A stretch of DNA of 64,000 nucleotides from Hyalangium gracile (GTDB taxonomy: Bacteria; Myxococcota; Myxococcia; Myxococcales; Myxococcaceae): assembly GCF_020103725.1 (NCBI RefSeq), contig NZ_JAHXBG010000020.1:62001-126000 (forward strand), given 5' to 3'. The notes beneath the pieces are model-generated. The model did not search any database. It saw nothing but the letters and a program-made list of their open reading frames with translations, and was not told the origin of the DNA. Shown here piece after piece: positions 7,406 to 13,628 of this stretch (position 1 is the stretch's first letter; the number at the start of each line of letters is the position of its first letter). The position numbers were made by a program, and so were the translations under genes.

Positions 7406-8635
7406 CTAGCTTCCTGCCCGAGAAGGGAGCTGGAGAGCGAAGGAGCGCTCGGGCAGCCACGCCACGAGTCGCTCGGCGGCAGCCTCGAGCGCCGCGCCGA
7501 CCCGGAGCGCGCGCCCTCCAAGTGGCACCCGCATGATGCGCACCTCGCTCAGGCGTCCGAAGGTCCTCAGTCGCAGGGTGGTCTCCTCCGGCACCGCTCC
7601 CGTGGCCGGCAGCACGAGCGCTCCGCGACGCGTGTCCAGGCACGCCAGATAGGTGACGAGCTGCTGGAAGTCATCCGCCGGTGGCAGGCCGTCGGCGGGG
7701 AGCTTGTACTTGGCATCGATGACGAGCCGGGCGCCGCCGTGCTCGAGGACGATGTCTGGGATGGCGGTGAGCTGGCTCTCGGTGTCCAGCGAGAGCGGGC
7801 GCTGCGCATGACACGCCATGCCCCGAGCGTCCGCCACGCGGGCCAGGGCTCGGGTGATGGCGGCCTCGAACAGGGGCGCGAGCCGGATGACGAAGGAGGC
7901 CAGGGGCTGGACACCAGGAGTTGCCTGCACACCCGCGCCCTCCAGGATGAGGCGCGCGAGCCCCACCGCCGGCCCATACGGAGTGAAGCGCCGGTCCGAG
8001 GCCAGCATCCGCAGCGCGGCCCGCACCTCAGCCAGCGGCTGCACGTCGGCCAGCGTGGAGGCCAGCGCGTTCGCCTGGGCCGCGACGCGTGAGCCGAAGG
8101 CGCTGGAGCGCTCCAGCACCCTGAGTGCCGCGAGCAGCACCCGGTTTGGTGCAACGTCCGGAGTGAACTCGTCGAACCGGCATGACAGCAGGTGACGGTG
8201 CGTGGGCGGCCGGGAGACATCCCTGCTCACGAGCCAGCGTCCGCGCAGCGTCGGGCGCTCATCCTCTTCTTCCCGGTAGCCGCGCACCCAGCCGCCGCGA
8301 GCCAGCCGCTCCACCCTGCGCAGGTAGAGCGTGCCGAGCAGCGAGAGCAGCTCGTCCGCCGAGTCCGAGCCGACGACGTCCCCGCCCCAGGCCACCTCCC
8401 TCGAGGCGTAATCGACCAGCGCGAGCAGGTTGAGCCCTGGCACCTTGGGCCGCACGTGCAGCGTCCCGCCCGGGAGCGACACCAGCCCCGCCACGCCCTG
8501 GGCCCGGAGCCGGAAGCCTCCCACGGAGGGCTCGACGGACAGCGCCGAGCCCAGGTGCGCCTGCGCCACGAGTACGTCCGAGGGCGAGAGCGGCAGCTCG
8601 CTCCACTCCCACTCGGTGAGGGTCCACGCCGTCAT
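7406..8635 (-). CDS. mcrC: McrC-like nuclease subunit of a McrBC restriction system
   Basis: 409 residues. The N-terminal half is the McrC beta-rich domain (LVSLPGGTLHVRPKVPG); the C-terminal half has the PD-(D/E)xK nuclease core AIPDIVLEHGGARLVIDAKYK at about 305-325, with D, D and K all present. McrC joins the McrB NTPase hexamer and cuts DNA containing modified bases. Its ATG overlaps the mcrB stop in ATGA, the usual tight coupling of the pair. Full length for the family. Confidence 0.92.
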   Translation of the reverse strand: MTAWTLTEWEWSELPLSPSDVLVAQAHLGSALSVEPSVGGFRLRAQGVAGLVSLPGGTLHVRPKVPGLNLLALVDYASREVAWGGDVVGSDSADELLSLLGTLYLRRVERLARGGWVRGYREEEDERPTLRGRWLVSRDVSRPPTHRHLLSCRFDEFTPDVAPNRVLLAALRVLERSSAFGSRVAAQANALASTLADVQPLAEVRAALRMLASDRRFTPYGPAVGLARLILEGAGVQATPGVQPLASFVIRLAPLFEAAITRALARVADARGMACHAQRPLSLDTESQLTAIPDIVLEHGGARLVIDAKYKLPADGLPPADDFQQLVTYLACLDTRRGALVLPATGAVPEETTLRLRTFGRLSEVRIMRVPLGGRALRVGAALEAAAERLVAWLPERSFALQLPSRAGS

Positions 8636-11370
8636 TCCGCCATGTCCACCGCGCCGGGGCGGGCCGCATCGAAGAGGGCGCGCAATTCCGTCACCACCTG
8701 CGGCGAGTCGTAGAAGCAGTCCTCCAGCATCGGGGCGATGTCATGGCGCCAGATGCGCTCGACGCGCGAGCTGTCCAGGTCCTTGTCCATGAAGAACGAG
8801 TGGCCCACGCAGAACTCGCGGCCCGGCGAGCGGGCGATGCGCGAGTTCACCGCCTCCAGACCCTCGACGACCCAGTCACACACGTCCGGCGCCACGTCCC
8901 ACTTGAGCAGGTTGCGCCGCAGCACCTCCACGTCCGGATCCATCCGCACGAAGTGGAACCGGCGCCGCAGCGCCACGTCGATCTGCGCGATGGACCGGTC
9001 CGCGCTGTTCATCGTCCCGATGAGGTAGAGGTTGGGCGGCAGCTCGAACAAGTCCCCCGAGCCCGCCAGTCGCACCCGCTCCTCGCGGTACTCCAGCAGA
9101 TAGAGCAGCTCGCCGAAGACGCGCGGCAGGGCGGCGCGATTGATTTCATCGATGAGCAGCACGAAGCGCTCGGTGGGCGAGGCCTGGGCCTTCTCCGCCA
9201 GGGCCTTGAGGATGCCGGGGCGGTACTCGTAGCGCAGCCCTCCCGGGGCCTGGGGATCCACCTGGGGTCGCAGGCCCTCGACGAAGTCCTCGTAGGAGTA
9301 GGCGGGGTGGAACTGGACGCGCTCGCAGCGGGCCTCGGCGCCGGCCTGGTAGCGCGCCAGCTCCCGGGCGATGAACGTCTTCCCCGTGCCGGGCGGCCCA
9401 TAGAGGATGAGCTGGCGCCGGTGCTCCAGCAGTGCGCACAGCTCCTCCAGCCGCTCGCGCCGCAGCGAGGTGACGTGCAGGAAGCGCTCGGCGGGATCCA
9501 GCTCCTTGGGAGGTTGCTGATCCAGCCGGGCCTTGAGCCAGTAGAGGAAGCGCCGCATGGCCTGCGTGGCCGGCAGCCCCGCCGCGGACATGTGAGGCGC
9601 CAGCGCCTCCCGGAGCGCATCGTTGGAGCGCACCGCCAGCGTGCCGGGCGAGAGCGAGGCGGGCAGCGGCGGCAGCCCGAGCATCTCCATCATTCGCGCC
9701 TTCCCGTGGTCTCCCTCGGAGGCGTAGACACCCAGGAAGCGCTCGGGCTGGACGAGCGCCAGACACTTCATCAGCACGCCCTCGCCCAGCCCCTGCACGT
9801 ACGTGGGGCTGCTCTTGTCGAGCGCGCGGTCCAGGCGCTGCTCCACCCGGCCCTCGCCGTAGAGCACGTCGCGCAGCGTGGCGCGGAAGCGGCCGAGTTC
9901 GTCCTCGCCGGCCTCCAGGAAGAAGCGGTTGAGGCGGGCGACGGAGCCGGGCGAGCCGAGCACGCCCAGCTGGAACACGGGCCGGAAGTCCTCCGGCGTG
10001 AGCCGGTCGAGCGCATCCTTCGCCAGCAGCCGTGCCCAGGCCTCGCGCTGCTGCGCATCCCGCGAGTCCGTCTCGTCCGGGTAGCCCGAGGTGCGGCGCC
10101 ACTCGTCCACCCACGCCGCCAGATCCAACACGCGCGGCACCTGGGCCACGGACGGCTCGGGAGCGGTGGCGGCGGGGCCCAGGTACGGAGCGAGCACCTC
10201 GTGCACCTCAGGGTTGCGGTCCCAGACGAGCCGGGCGAGGTGGGGCAGCTCGTCGGCGCGGATGGGCAGCACCATGCCGCTGCGAGGCGAGGCCATCATC
10301 ATCCCCGACAGCGTCGAGTGCGCCTGGATGGCCGCCAGCGGGATGGGTTGGGGGAGCACATCGGTGAGGAACTCCACCTCGAAGCGCGTCTCCTCTCCGA
10401 CGGGCACGGGCGCGGCCACCAGCCTGCCGAGCCCCAGCACCTCTCGCACGGGGCTGGCCTGATAGAGGAAGACCAGGTCCCCGGGCTCGGCGTCCTGGAG
10501 CCACTCGCGCGAGCTGCGCTGGGTGGCCGTCCACGTGCTGCGCCGGCCGCGCCGCAGCTCGGTGCGCAGGTTGCGCCGGGAGAGCATGTTGCGGACGACC
10601 CAGGCGCCCACCTCCTCCTCGGGCTCGCCGCCGATGTCGTCCTCCGGCGGGCCGTCCTCCAATTCCTCCACCTTCTTCCGGGCGAGGTAGCCCCCCTGCT
10701 TCCTGTCACACAGCCAGTGGCAGAAGGCGTCGAAGTGGTCCGCGTCCTGGATGCCCAGGGGCTTGAGGCGCTCGAGCACGGAGCGCAGCGTGGCGTTGGC
10801 CTCCAGGTAGTGCTCGATGGCGACGCTCACCTCGCGAGGCTCGCCCCACAGCGCCAGGCAGAAGTTGCCCGCGCGGCGGCTCTTGGCGTTGACGACGAGG
10901 TACAGGTCCGGCCGCAGGCAGTGCAGCGCCGGGCTGAGGAAGCCCGAGCGGAACCCCTTGGACAGCGGCGAGGCGGCGAAGGCATCGAGGGCGGCCTGCT
11001 GGGGCCCGCGCTCCAGCGCTCGGAGCAGGCGCAGGATGTGGCTGGCGACCTCTCGCCACGCGGCCTCGTCCGGCACCCAGCCCACGTTCTGGAACCAGAG
11101 CTTTATCTCCCGATTGATGACGGCCCAGCGCGCGGTCCACGCGCCGCGCTGGCGGTTGAAGGGGGTGTCGCGGTGGGGCAGCAGCTTCGCCAGCACCCGC
11201 TCCGTCACGTCCTCGCCGGCGTCCGCGCGGCGGCAGAGGTCCTCGAACGCGGAGCGAGCGAAGGCGGCGTCCACGGCATAACGGGCCAGGTGCGCCTGTC
11301 CGGCGGGCTGATGGACGAAGCGCTGGAGGAACTGGGCGACGAGCTCGGGCAGGGGTGGCAGGACATTCAC
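8632..11370 (-). CDS. mcrB: McrB-like NTPase with EVE modified-base-reading domain
   Basis: About 912 residues from the GTG chosen here (GCGAGG about 8 bases upstream); another GTG at 11424 is possible. Residues 1-250 are helical and unrecognised. Residues about 255-400 form an EVE/PUA-like domain (GAWVVRNML; W-rich; GDLVFLYQASPVREVLG), which reads modified bases. The AAA+ GTPase motor follows: Walker A GPPGTGKT near 657, Walker B LLIDEINRA near 736, the McrB signature MNSADRS near 787, and an Arg-rich VALRRRFHF. E. coli McrB has NTAD where this has NSAD. It translocates DNA and activates McrC at modified sites; the EVE domain replaces the E. coli DNA-binding domain. Confidence 0.9.
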   Translation of the reverse strand: MNVLPPLPELVAQFLQRFVHQPAGQAHLARYAVDAAFARSAFEDLCRRADAGEDVTERVLAKLLPHRDTPFNRQRGAWTARWAVINREIKLWFQNVGWVPDEAAWREVASHILRLLRALERGPQQAALDAFAASPLSKGFRSGFLSPALHCLRPDLYLVVNAKSRRAGNFCLALWGEPREVSVAIEHYLEANATLRSVLERLKPLGIQDADHFDAFCHWLCDRKQGGYLARKKVEELEDGPPEDDIGGEPEEEVGAWVVRNMLSRRNLRTELRRGRRSTWTATQRSSREWLQDAEPGDLVFLYQASPVREVLGLGRLVAAPVPVGEETRFEVEFLTDVLPQPIPLAAIQAHSTLSGMMMASPRSGMVLPIRADELPHLARLVWDRNPEVHEVLAPYLGPAATAPEPSVAQVPRVLDLAAWVDEWRRTSGYPDETDSRDAQQREAWARLLAKDALDRLTPEDFRPVFQLGVLGSPGSVARLNRFFLEAGEDELGRFRATLRDVLYGEGRVEQRLDRALDKSSPTYVQGLGEGVLMKCLALVQPERFLGVYASEGDHGKARMMEMLGLPPLPASLSPGTLAVRSNDALREALAPHMSAAGLPATQAMRRFLYWLKARLDQQPPKELDPAERFLHVTSLRRERLEELCALLEHRRQLILYGPPGTGKTFIARELARYQAGAEARCERVQFHPAYSYEDFVEGLRPQVDPQAPGGLRYEYRPGILKALAEKAQASPTERFVLLIDEINRAALPRVFGELLYLLEYREERVRLAGSGDLFELPPNLYLIGTMNSADRSIAQIDVALRRRFHFVRMDPDVEVLRRNLLKWDVAPDVCDWVVEGLEAVNSRIARSPGREFCVGHSFFMDKDLDSSRVERIWRHDIAPMLEDCFYDSPQVVTELRALFDAARPGAVDMAE

Positions 11371-11669
11371 GTGGCGGGCCTCGCCAGCGTCCTGGCCGAC
11401 TCCACCGGGCGAGGCTCGAAGCACGCCCGGCCGAGGGGCAGGCAGGACCGGTTGGGTAGGGTGCCACTCACACTACCCAGCAGCACTCCCGGGTGCCACG
11501 ATTATTCGGCGCGGCCTGCACGGCTGGTAGGGAAAGGGCCGTGCTGGGCGTGTGGCCACCGACCCGGGCACGGGCCCGGAGTCGACACGTCTCCAGGCCC
11601 CTTTTCTGGCGGCGGGCGCTCGACTACCTTGCGCCGCCCTTCAGCCTTCCCCTTCACGAGGAACCGACG
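11371..11669. other. divergent intergenic region, mcrBC and 11670 gene
   Basis: About 299 bases between the mcrB start and the next gene on the other strand. It must contain both promoters. It has no ORF I believe, no clear -35/-10 pair and no repeat that stands out. A GTG at 11424 could extend mcrB into it. Confidence 0.5.
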
Positions 11670-12140
11670 ATGCCCAGGATCTCCCAGGCCCAGACGCAGG
11701 AGCGCAACGCCTTCCTGCTCGAGCTCATCCGCGACCAGCCGGACATCACCCGCGAGGAGGCGCAGGAGCGCTTCGAGGAGAAGTTCGACGCCACGCTCAA
11801 CCCGAAGCTCTTCCAGCAGCTCCGGGAGCAGGCGGAGCAGGAGCGCGCGGCCCCGCCGGCCGAGGAGCCCTCGCGCGACGAGCAGGACTCCGCGGAGGAC
11901 GATGCTCCCCAGTCCAAGCCCGCGGCCAGCGCCGCCGAGGGCACCAACGGCGCCTCCGCCCAGCCCGCCAAGGCCAAGGCCAAGGGCGCGAAGCAGAAGA
12001 ACCTCTTCGTGGACGCGCCGAAGGAGCAGCTGGTCTTCCTGGAGCGCATCGTGCAGCAGCTCCAGGAGGCGGGCGCCTCCAACGTGCGCATCGACCACTC
12101 CACGGACCGCTGGATGGTCCTCGTGGTGGACGGCAAGTAG
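11670..12140 (+). CDS. small acidic protein of unknown function
   Basis: 156 residues. ATG chosen behind GAGGAA; an in-frame extension to 11493 has unnatural composition. Residues 1-60 are helical with charged repeats (QERNAFLLELIRDQPDITRE), possibly a small HTH-like unit. Residues 65-105 are a low-complexity Ala/Glu/Pro/Ser linker, followed by a Lys patch (AKAKAKGAKQK) and a compact C-terminal unit (QLQEAGASNVRIDHSTDRW). No family recognised. It is divergent from mcrB and may be unrelated to it. Confidence 0.75.
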   Translation: MPRISQAQTQERNAFLLELIRDQPDITREEAQERFEEKFDATLNPKLFQQLREQAEQERAAPPAEEPSRDEQDSAEDDAPQSKPAASAAEGTNGASAQPAKAKAKGAKQKNLFVDAPKEQLVFLERIVQQLQEAGASNVRIDHSTDRWMVLVVDGK

Positions 12141-12228
12141 CACCGCGCAAGACGGCAGATGAGCCAGAGGGAGACCCGCGACGACGGTCATCACTCCCTC
12201 ACCGGCGACAGGCCCCGCGCCACGCCGC

Positions 12229-12951
12229 TTACAAGCGGAAGCCCATGGACACTCCGCCCGTGGGCCCGCTCAGCGACACCGAGAAGCCCCCCGGAGTGAG
12301 GTCCCTGCCGCGGAACTCGAAGTGGCGGGCCTGCTGGAAGTACCGGATGTAGCCAGCCTGGAGGCGGAAGTAGACCGGGCTGTTGGTGAGGACGAGCAGG
12401 GAGACGGTTCCACTCGCGCCGAAGAGCCACTGAAAGGCTCGGACCTCGGTGATCGAGTCCGGGGCGGGGCCGGTGTCTGGAATCGGCGGGGCGCCGAAGG
12501 AGGTCTCCCCCGCGCCGATCGAAGCCTCGGCGGCCGCGGCGTGGACAGCCAGCCCCAGCGAGAACCGCCGGGACAGGGGGAGCTCCTTCTCCAGACCGAA
12601 CCGGAGCGAGAAGACCTGGACGTCCTTCGAGAAATACCAGTCCAGCGCATTGCTCTCCCAGAGGTTCTCCACATCGAAGAACTGGCTCAGGGCCACGTGG
12701 ACACCAAAGGTGGCTCGTGCGGCGGTGTCCCGGTCCGACGAGAAGCGAGGGAAGCCGACGGGGGAGGGAGGCAGCGGCGCGGCGGGATGACGCATGGCGG
12801 CAAGCGTGCCACCGACATCCAGGGCCACCCTCAGGGGAGCGGAGGTCTGCTCGGGCTCCTCGGCTCGCGCCACGGTGGGCAGGGCCGTGAGGCTCAGGAG
12901 CAAGGCGGTCGTGAGCAGGTGGATCGACAGTCCGCTCGGAGCATGGCGCAT
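12229..12951 (-). CDS. probable outer-membrane beta-barrel protein
   Basis: 240 residues with a signal peptide (LLTTALLLSLTALPTVARA, cut near residue 30). The mature part alternates amphipathic strands (FGVHVALSQFFDV; VQVFSLRFGLEKELPL; VYFRLQAGYIRYFQ) and ends in strand-like GGVSMGFRL, as small outer-membrane barrels do. No conserved domain recognised. Divergent from the RNA ligase-like gene with only 49 bases between starts. Confidence 0.7.
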   Translation of the reverse strand: MRHAPSGLSIHLLTTALLLSLTALPTVARAEEPEQTSAPLRVALDVGGTLAAMRHPAAPLPPSPVGFPRFSSDRDTAARATFGVHVALSQFFDVENLWESNALDWYFSKDVQVFSLRFGLEKELPLSRRFSLGLAVHAAAAEASIGAGETSFGAPPIPDTGPAPDSITEVRAFQWLFGASGTVSLLVLTNSPVYFRLQAGYIRYFQQARHFEFRGRDLTPGGFSVSLSGPTGGVSMGFRL

Positions 12952-13000
12952 GTCCGGTGTCCCTCCTGTGAGTCGTCAACGACGGCCCGAGGAGCTTCCC

Positions 13001-13615
13001 ATGAACGACGCAGGGCCGCACCACACCAGCTACGAGAAGATTGTCGAGCGCCCGGAGCAGTGGGGACTGGATGACACGGGTTACCGAGCGCTGAAGAAGA
13101 GCCCGTGGGTGGTGACCGAGAAGATCCACGGCGCCAACTTCGCGCTCCTGAGTGAAGGGCGGACGGTGCGCTGCGCCAGGCGCAAGGCGCTGCTGGCGGA
13201 GGGTGAGGACTTCTTCGGGCACACGGCGCTGCTGCCACGGCTCGTCCCGGCGGTGCTCCGGCTGTACACGGCGGTGCGCGCCAGCCACCCGGACACGGTG
13301 CGTGTGACGCTCTATGGCGAGCTGTTCGGCGGAGCCTATCCGCACCCGGAGGTGGCGCCGGTGCCGGGAGTGCAGGCGGTGCAGACGGGCGTGTACTACT
13401 CGCCGCGCATCGAGTTCTGCGCGTTCGATCTCGCGCGCAGCCCCAAGGCCGAGGCACTGCTGAAGCTGCTGGTGGAGGACATCCTGGAGCAGCTCGAGAC
13501 GGACGCGGCAGACAGCCTGCGCGCCCTGGCGCCGGAGTCACGGGCGGCGCTCGAGGCGCACGTGCGGCAGGAGGCGGAGGATCTGCGCACGCTCTACTTC
13601 GAGCTGCGCCGCTGA
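13001..13615 (+). CDS. Rnl2-type RNA ligase lacking motifs IV and V
   Basis: 204 residues, against about 330-350 for T4 Rnl2 relatives. ATG follows CGAGGAG. Motif I with the adenylated Lys is intact (WVVTEKIHGANFALL, Lys near 36), as are the following VRCARRK and EDFFG stretches, motif III (YGELFGG) and motif IIIa (FCAFDL). After this the protein jumps straight to the helical C-terminal domain (LLKLLVEDILEQLE). Motif IV (EGxxxK) and motif V (KxK) are absent, as if some 140 residues had been lost in frame. It might still self-adenylate poorly, bind RNA, or be dead. The frame itself is clean and has strong coding character. Confidence 0.82.
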   Translation: MNDAGPHHTSYEKIVERPEQWGLDDTGYRALKKSPWVVTEKIHGANFALLSEGRTVRCARRKALLAEGEDFFGHTALLPRLVPAVLRLYTAVRASHPDTVRVTLYGELFGGAYPHPEVAPVPGVQAVQTGVYYSPRIEFCAFDLARSPKAEALLKLLVEDILEQLETDAADSLRALAPESRAALEAHVRQEAEDLRTLYFELRR

Positions 13616-13628
13616 GGGGCCTTGGCTG

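Follow-up and report, generated by a model that had tools for sequence, protein, structure and literature searches.

RNA ligases of the Rnl2 type adenylate a lysine in motif I with ATP, transfer the AMP to an RNA 5' phosphate and finally join the two strands, as described in PMC4599027. According to PMC3514331, motif V is needed to bind ATP and for step 1, the T4 Rnl2 mutants K225A and K225Q being inactive in self-adenylation, and an archaeal ligase carrying point mutations in motif I or V retains step 3. A non-exhaustive literature search found no description of natural Rnl2 proteins with an internal deletion. Here we analyse such a gene in a 64,000-nucleotide stretch of the Hyalangium gracile genome (the window), which an original prediction had read as an RNA ligase with motifs I to IIIa and no motif IV or V. 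We conclude that the gene carries a private in-frame internal deletion, and that its product is very probably a catalytically dead, decaying remnant of an accessory ligase. The features of the locus are listed below.

12989–12994, + strand: GAGGAG, likely ribosome-binding site, 6 bases upstream of the ATG (sequence inspection); the H. versicolor gene also has GAGGAG
13001–13615, + strand: Rnl2-type RNA ligase gene with an internal deletion, coding for 204 aa and a stop (translation, profile matches, H. versicolor alignment)
13001–13438, + strand: retained N-terminal part, residues 1–146; DNA 88% identical to H. versicolor, the match beginning 49 bases upstream
13121–13132, + strand: motif I, KIHG, in which Lys41 corresponds to the nucleotidyl lysine (alignment)
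13319–13333, + strand: motif III, ELFGG, residues 107–111 (alignment)
13415–13435, + strand: motif IIIa, FCAFDLA, residues 139–145 (alignment)
13438–13439, + strand: deletion junction, where 444 bp (148 codons) of H. versicolor (L032:6439-6882) are absent
13439–13612, + strand: retained C-terminal tail, residues 147–204, the two long helices that end the ligase

The open reading frame list starts this frame at 12794 (273 aa); by placing the ATG at 13001, on the basis of homology and of the start of the H. versicolor gene, we obtained a clean 204-residue translation with the frame open throughout. Codon use is typical of a coding gene on either side of the junction, with in-frame scores of 0.44 for the N-terminal and 0.60 for the C-terminal part, compared to −0.27 and −0.65 in the wrong frames and 0.47–0.56 in three neighbouring genes, so that the clean frame and normal codon use of the original prediction stand. 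The same is true of the early motifs: motifs I, III and IIIa of a functional Rnl2-type ligase are all present, and Lys41 pairs with the nucleotidyl lysine of T4 Rnl2, in a column that is invariant in all 37 aligned rows. The protein is matched by the Pfam RNA_ligase profile over residues 35–165 (E 8.4e-11, 42.7 bits, cut-off 27), by the NCBIfam Rnl2 family over residues 31–163 (E 4e-20, 72.6 bits, under the model cut-off of 197) and marginally by T4_Rnl2_C over residues 150–193 (E 0.083), the last of which scores 26.7 bits over residues 272–341 of a full-length relative, just short of its cut-off of 27. Annotation by domain match alone would thus label this gene an RNA ligase despite its missing essential motifs.

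The nearest relative is a 352-aa gene of Hyalangium versicolor H56D21 (L032:6001-7059), to which the window DNA is 88% identical over 12952–13438 and 87% identical over 13439–13615. The identity flanking the gap establishes descent from a full-length Rnl2 gene, and at 13438|13439 exactly 444 bp are missing with the frame kept. The lost block carries motifs IV (AEGIVLKP) and V (VLKHKI), both confirmed as absent, at the close of the nucleotidyltransferase domain, and continues through the linker into the helices that open the C-terminal domain. The motif IV glutamate (E210 column; E204 in T4 Rnl2) and the motif V lysines (K234 and K236 columns) fall inside this block, and the window protein accordingly lacks these residues of a functional Rnl2-type ligase; its C-terminal domain is also incomplete. 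Family alignment, which covered 36 full-length or nearly full-length proteins (P0002 and 35 of 79 loci, L089 having been dropped beforehand for its internal stop), gave 37 invariant columns, 14 of which are lost (P202, N207, E210, G211, V213, P216, R230, K234, K236, F240, R279, S285, K286 and G288) and 23 retained, all 23 being conserved in the window protein. The predicted skip to the C-terminal helices is therefore correct for the last two long helices, while the first part of the domain, with R279, S285, K286 and G288, has been lost as well. Around the two ends of the deletion we found just 5-base words common to both vicinities, none of them in register; in the absence of an in-register repeat, a repeat-mediated mechanism is not claimed.

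Structure modelling by AlphaFold gave a mean pLDDT of 92.5 for the full-length protein and of 81.7 for the short one (pTM 0.60). The short protein is modelled with no motif I strand (36–40), the segment 31–40 having a mean pLDDT of 52 compared to approximately 98 in the full-length model, and the full-length strands 211–216, 222–224, 227–229 and 233–236 have no counterpart, while the last two helices are still confident. The motif I strand and the pocket for the nucleotide thus fall apart in the model of the short protein; since the alignment supplied to AlphaFold consists of full-length relatives, which pull the model toward the family fold, the loss may even be understated. By Foldseek, the top matches of the short protein are still trypanosome editing ligase 1 and T4 Rnl2, with a best E of 9.2e-8 compared to 1.5e-20 for the full-length protein. 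Because motifs IV and V and the strands carrying them are absent, adenylation is not expected, and judging from sequence and model the short protein should have lost adenylation and ligation activity. For the same reason a dead-end AMP-binding protein, one of the roles proposed by the original prediction, is unlikely; the protein may be an RNA-binding remnant, the other role proposed, though nothing points to it.

To what extent is the short form shared? A search of 195 Myxococcota genomes with the full-length protein gave a match in 37, the window genome included. All 36 others have a single match spanning motifs IV and V, among them the congener at 87% identity, and the window genome alone yields two pieces, 1–147 and 295–352. 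Within the genus, 3 of 7 genomes match, namely the window genome, H. versicolor and one with a full-length copy at 38% identity. There is no second copy in the window genome, where the full-length query recovers just the two flanking pieces, against the entire gene in the congener; likewise, a search of that genome with the DNA of the 444-bp block gave no match, and no separate fragment with motif IV or V. The Pfam RNA_ligase profile has one further match there, below the cut-off, at C18:24353 (26.6 bits). With the block present in 36 of 36 other Myxococcota genomes that match, and a second copy absent from the window genome, the deletion is private to the window lineage among the genomes searched. 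The short form that the original prediction sought in relatives is thus absent from them, the outcome which that prediction had itself named as pointing to a private in-frame deletion, and its suggestion that the short form is selected, rather than the product of a fresh deletion, is left unsupported.

Of 79 loci in named genomes, 71 have one match running from before residue 60 to past residue 280, two of these being known to carry an internal stop (L089 and L056) by a stop check that covered part of the set. Three of the other eight (L095, L097 and L101) are ligases with a naturally short C terminus in which motifs IV and V are present, one is a contig end (L108) and one a frameshifted copy (L107). 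At L062 the copy is split across two contig ends, with both halves found. In Thermosporothrix hazakensis (L106:6001-6591) a stop lies ahead of motif I and no recognisable similarity extends past motif IIIa, near the start of the window deletion; from its sequence this copy looks like a pseudogene. Seven distant relatives (26–32% identity) were found on viral contigs, none of them a phage source for the window gene.

A further locus, L109, is the copy in Dulcicalothrix desertica PCC 7102 (L109:6001-6408), which has its own in-frame internal deletion and a 142-aa open frame. Compared to the syntenic L056 of Calothrix sp. FI2-JRJ7, a copy that is frameshifted by a 1-base gap near codon 26, it is short of 663 bp (221 codons), the loss starting immediately behind motif I and reaching the C-terminal helices, with a 2-base overlap at the ends of the deletion. 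Coming from a different phylum and having different ends, this deletion is independent of that in the window. The Nostocaceae have the ligase gene in 21 of 217 genomes, and 5 of the 21 copies are damaged (the Dulcicalothrix deletion, one split copy, a pair of copies with a single stop each, and a copy with seven stops), a count in which a lone stop in a draft genome may be a sequence error or sit near the gene end. When 388 genomes were sampled from the Dulcicalothrix class, the single match was the Dulcicalothrix copy already known. The Rnl2 family is thus accessory, and its copies are often broken.

The two Hyalangium species carry the ligase at different places, the 35 kb around the H. versicolor copy having otherwise nothing in common with the window, and at the site that corresponds to the window's, H. 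versicolor (G006:C18) has a PAS/GAF histidine kinase in place of the ligase. Homology between the two ligase genes runs from approximately 49 bp before the ATG to the stop codon, and homology of the flank is back at 13617. From a conserved gene ending at 12140 to a DUF2339 gene there is a variable slot (12191–13616), occupied in the window genome by a 240-aa ORF and the ligase; gene and slot belong to the variable genome. Also in the window, a 930-aa protein with an EVE and an AAA_5 domain is encoded at 8632–11424 on the − strand, and it resembles McrB-type restriction or defence proteins. The window genome has several RtcB-family matches, so that the cell still has an RNA ligase of a different kind when this one is lost. 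Two of these matches are each divided into two pieces (G000:C1:370249-370888 and G000:C4:316134-317165), the former looking short or broken.

We propose that an accessory, patchily distributed Rnl2-type ligase gene was hit by a single internal in-frame 444-bp deletion in the window's Hyalangium lineage. The product would keep the lysine that accepts AMP, and would have lost motifs IV and V, whose part is to hold the ATP and to assist the attachment of AMP to that lysine, together with the first half of the C-terminal domain. The short protein would then neither self-adenylate nor ligate, and would be a decaying remnant whose frame happens to stay open. We infer that it has no new function, and it is most likely an ordinary decaying copy rather than a new kind of protein.

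Could the short protein instead be maintained by selection in a new, non-catalytic role, such as binding to RNA ends that are nicked or damaged, or dominant-negative interference with another ligase? This would make it a ligase turned binding protein. Its open frame and normal codons are as this reading would have them, and there is no decay other than the deletion itself, neither stop nor frameshift. Between the window and H. versicolor ligases dS is 0.341 and dN 0.057, a ratio of 0.167 (0.157 before the junction and 0.189 after it), level with the 0.118–0.189 of ten Nostocaceae pairs of full-length, intact ligases; five neighbouring genes gave 0.119, 0.206, 0.229, 0.253 and 0.571 between the same two species, the start of the last being uncertain. 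There are 25 amino-acid-changing differences, compared to approximately 87–92 expected if the window branch were wholly unconstrained, which by a rough Poisson estimate puts at most 9–24% of the branch, depending on the baseline, without constraint (one-sided 95% bound). Apart from 4 junction columns, there are 13 differences at which relatives more often have the window residue than the H. versicolor one and 9 at which the reverse holds, or 13 and 13 with those columns included; change on the window branch is thus not accelerated relative to H. versicolor. These data fit both a recent deletion and continued constraint on the remainder, and choose neither. Normal codon use and a low dN/dS are no proof of selection, since a recent deletion yields equal numbers, and parsimony favours a recent deletion over a selected short form because the short form is found in no relative. 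The second, independent in-frame deletion in Dulcicalothrix, which also keeps the N terminus with motif I and the C-terminal helices, would speak for a retained role, but the two deletions take out different stretches (148 and 221 codons) and the frameshift in L056, the sister copy, suggests decay there. As the loss also extends to the nucleotide pocket and to half of the C-terminal domain, we regard selection for a new role as improbable.

Alternatively, the gap might be an assembly or sequencing artefact in a real gene of full length, as the genome is a draft of 81 contigs and a gap of random length would be in frame a third of the time. The junction, however, lies remote from the contig ends, approximately 75.4 kb into a 215-kb contig, no repeat spans it, and no other part of the assembly contains the missing DNA, so that we give this explanation little credence. 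One could also speculate that in-frame loss of the catalytic core is a recurrent event in Rnl2 genes, as in the window and in Dulcicalothrix, the motif I segment, now fused to the C-terminal helices, being retained as a non-catalytic RNA-end-binding or regulatory protein, a generalisation that we consider very improbable. Finally, that the short protein still joins pre-adenylated RNA, performing step 3 only as the archaeal mutants do, or that a partner supplies motifs IV and V, is barely credible, since those are point mutants with an intact fold, whereas the window protein is without four strands and the first C-terminal helices, and the genome holds no separate fragment with the block. As a decayed gene the locus is of minor importance, one clean added example in a family of accessory ligases that is frequently found damaged.

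Set beside the known systems, the window copy is closest to the H. versicolor ligase, with which it shares 87% identity across the retained residues, the start and the ribosome-binding site, and from which it differs in the missing 148-codon block and in its genomic place. The Dulcicalothrix gene resembles it in having an in-frame internal deletion with motif I and the C-terminal helices kept, but has lost 221 codons, starting just after motif I, rather than 148. T4 RNA ligase 2 (PDB 2HVQ, 2HVR, 1S68) and trypanosome RNA editing ligase 1 (1XDN), the best matches in sequence and fold, share motifs I to IIIa, but keep motifs IV and V and the whole nucleotidyltransferase domain. Among the Bacteroidia or Bacteroidales MAGs, L095, L097 and L101 end or lose similarity soon after motif V, and are natural counterparts of the laboratory enzyme T4 Rnl2 1-249. 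Truncated T4 Rnl2 (1-249) is, like the window's, a shortened Rnl2 protein; yet in both it and these three MAG ligases motifs IV and V are preserved and it is the C-terminal domain that is gone, the opposite of the window protein.
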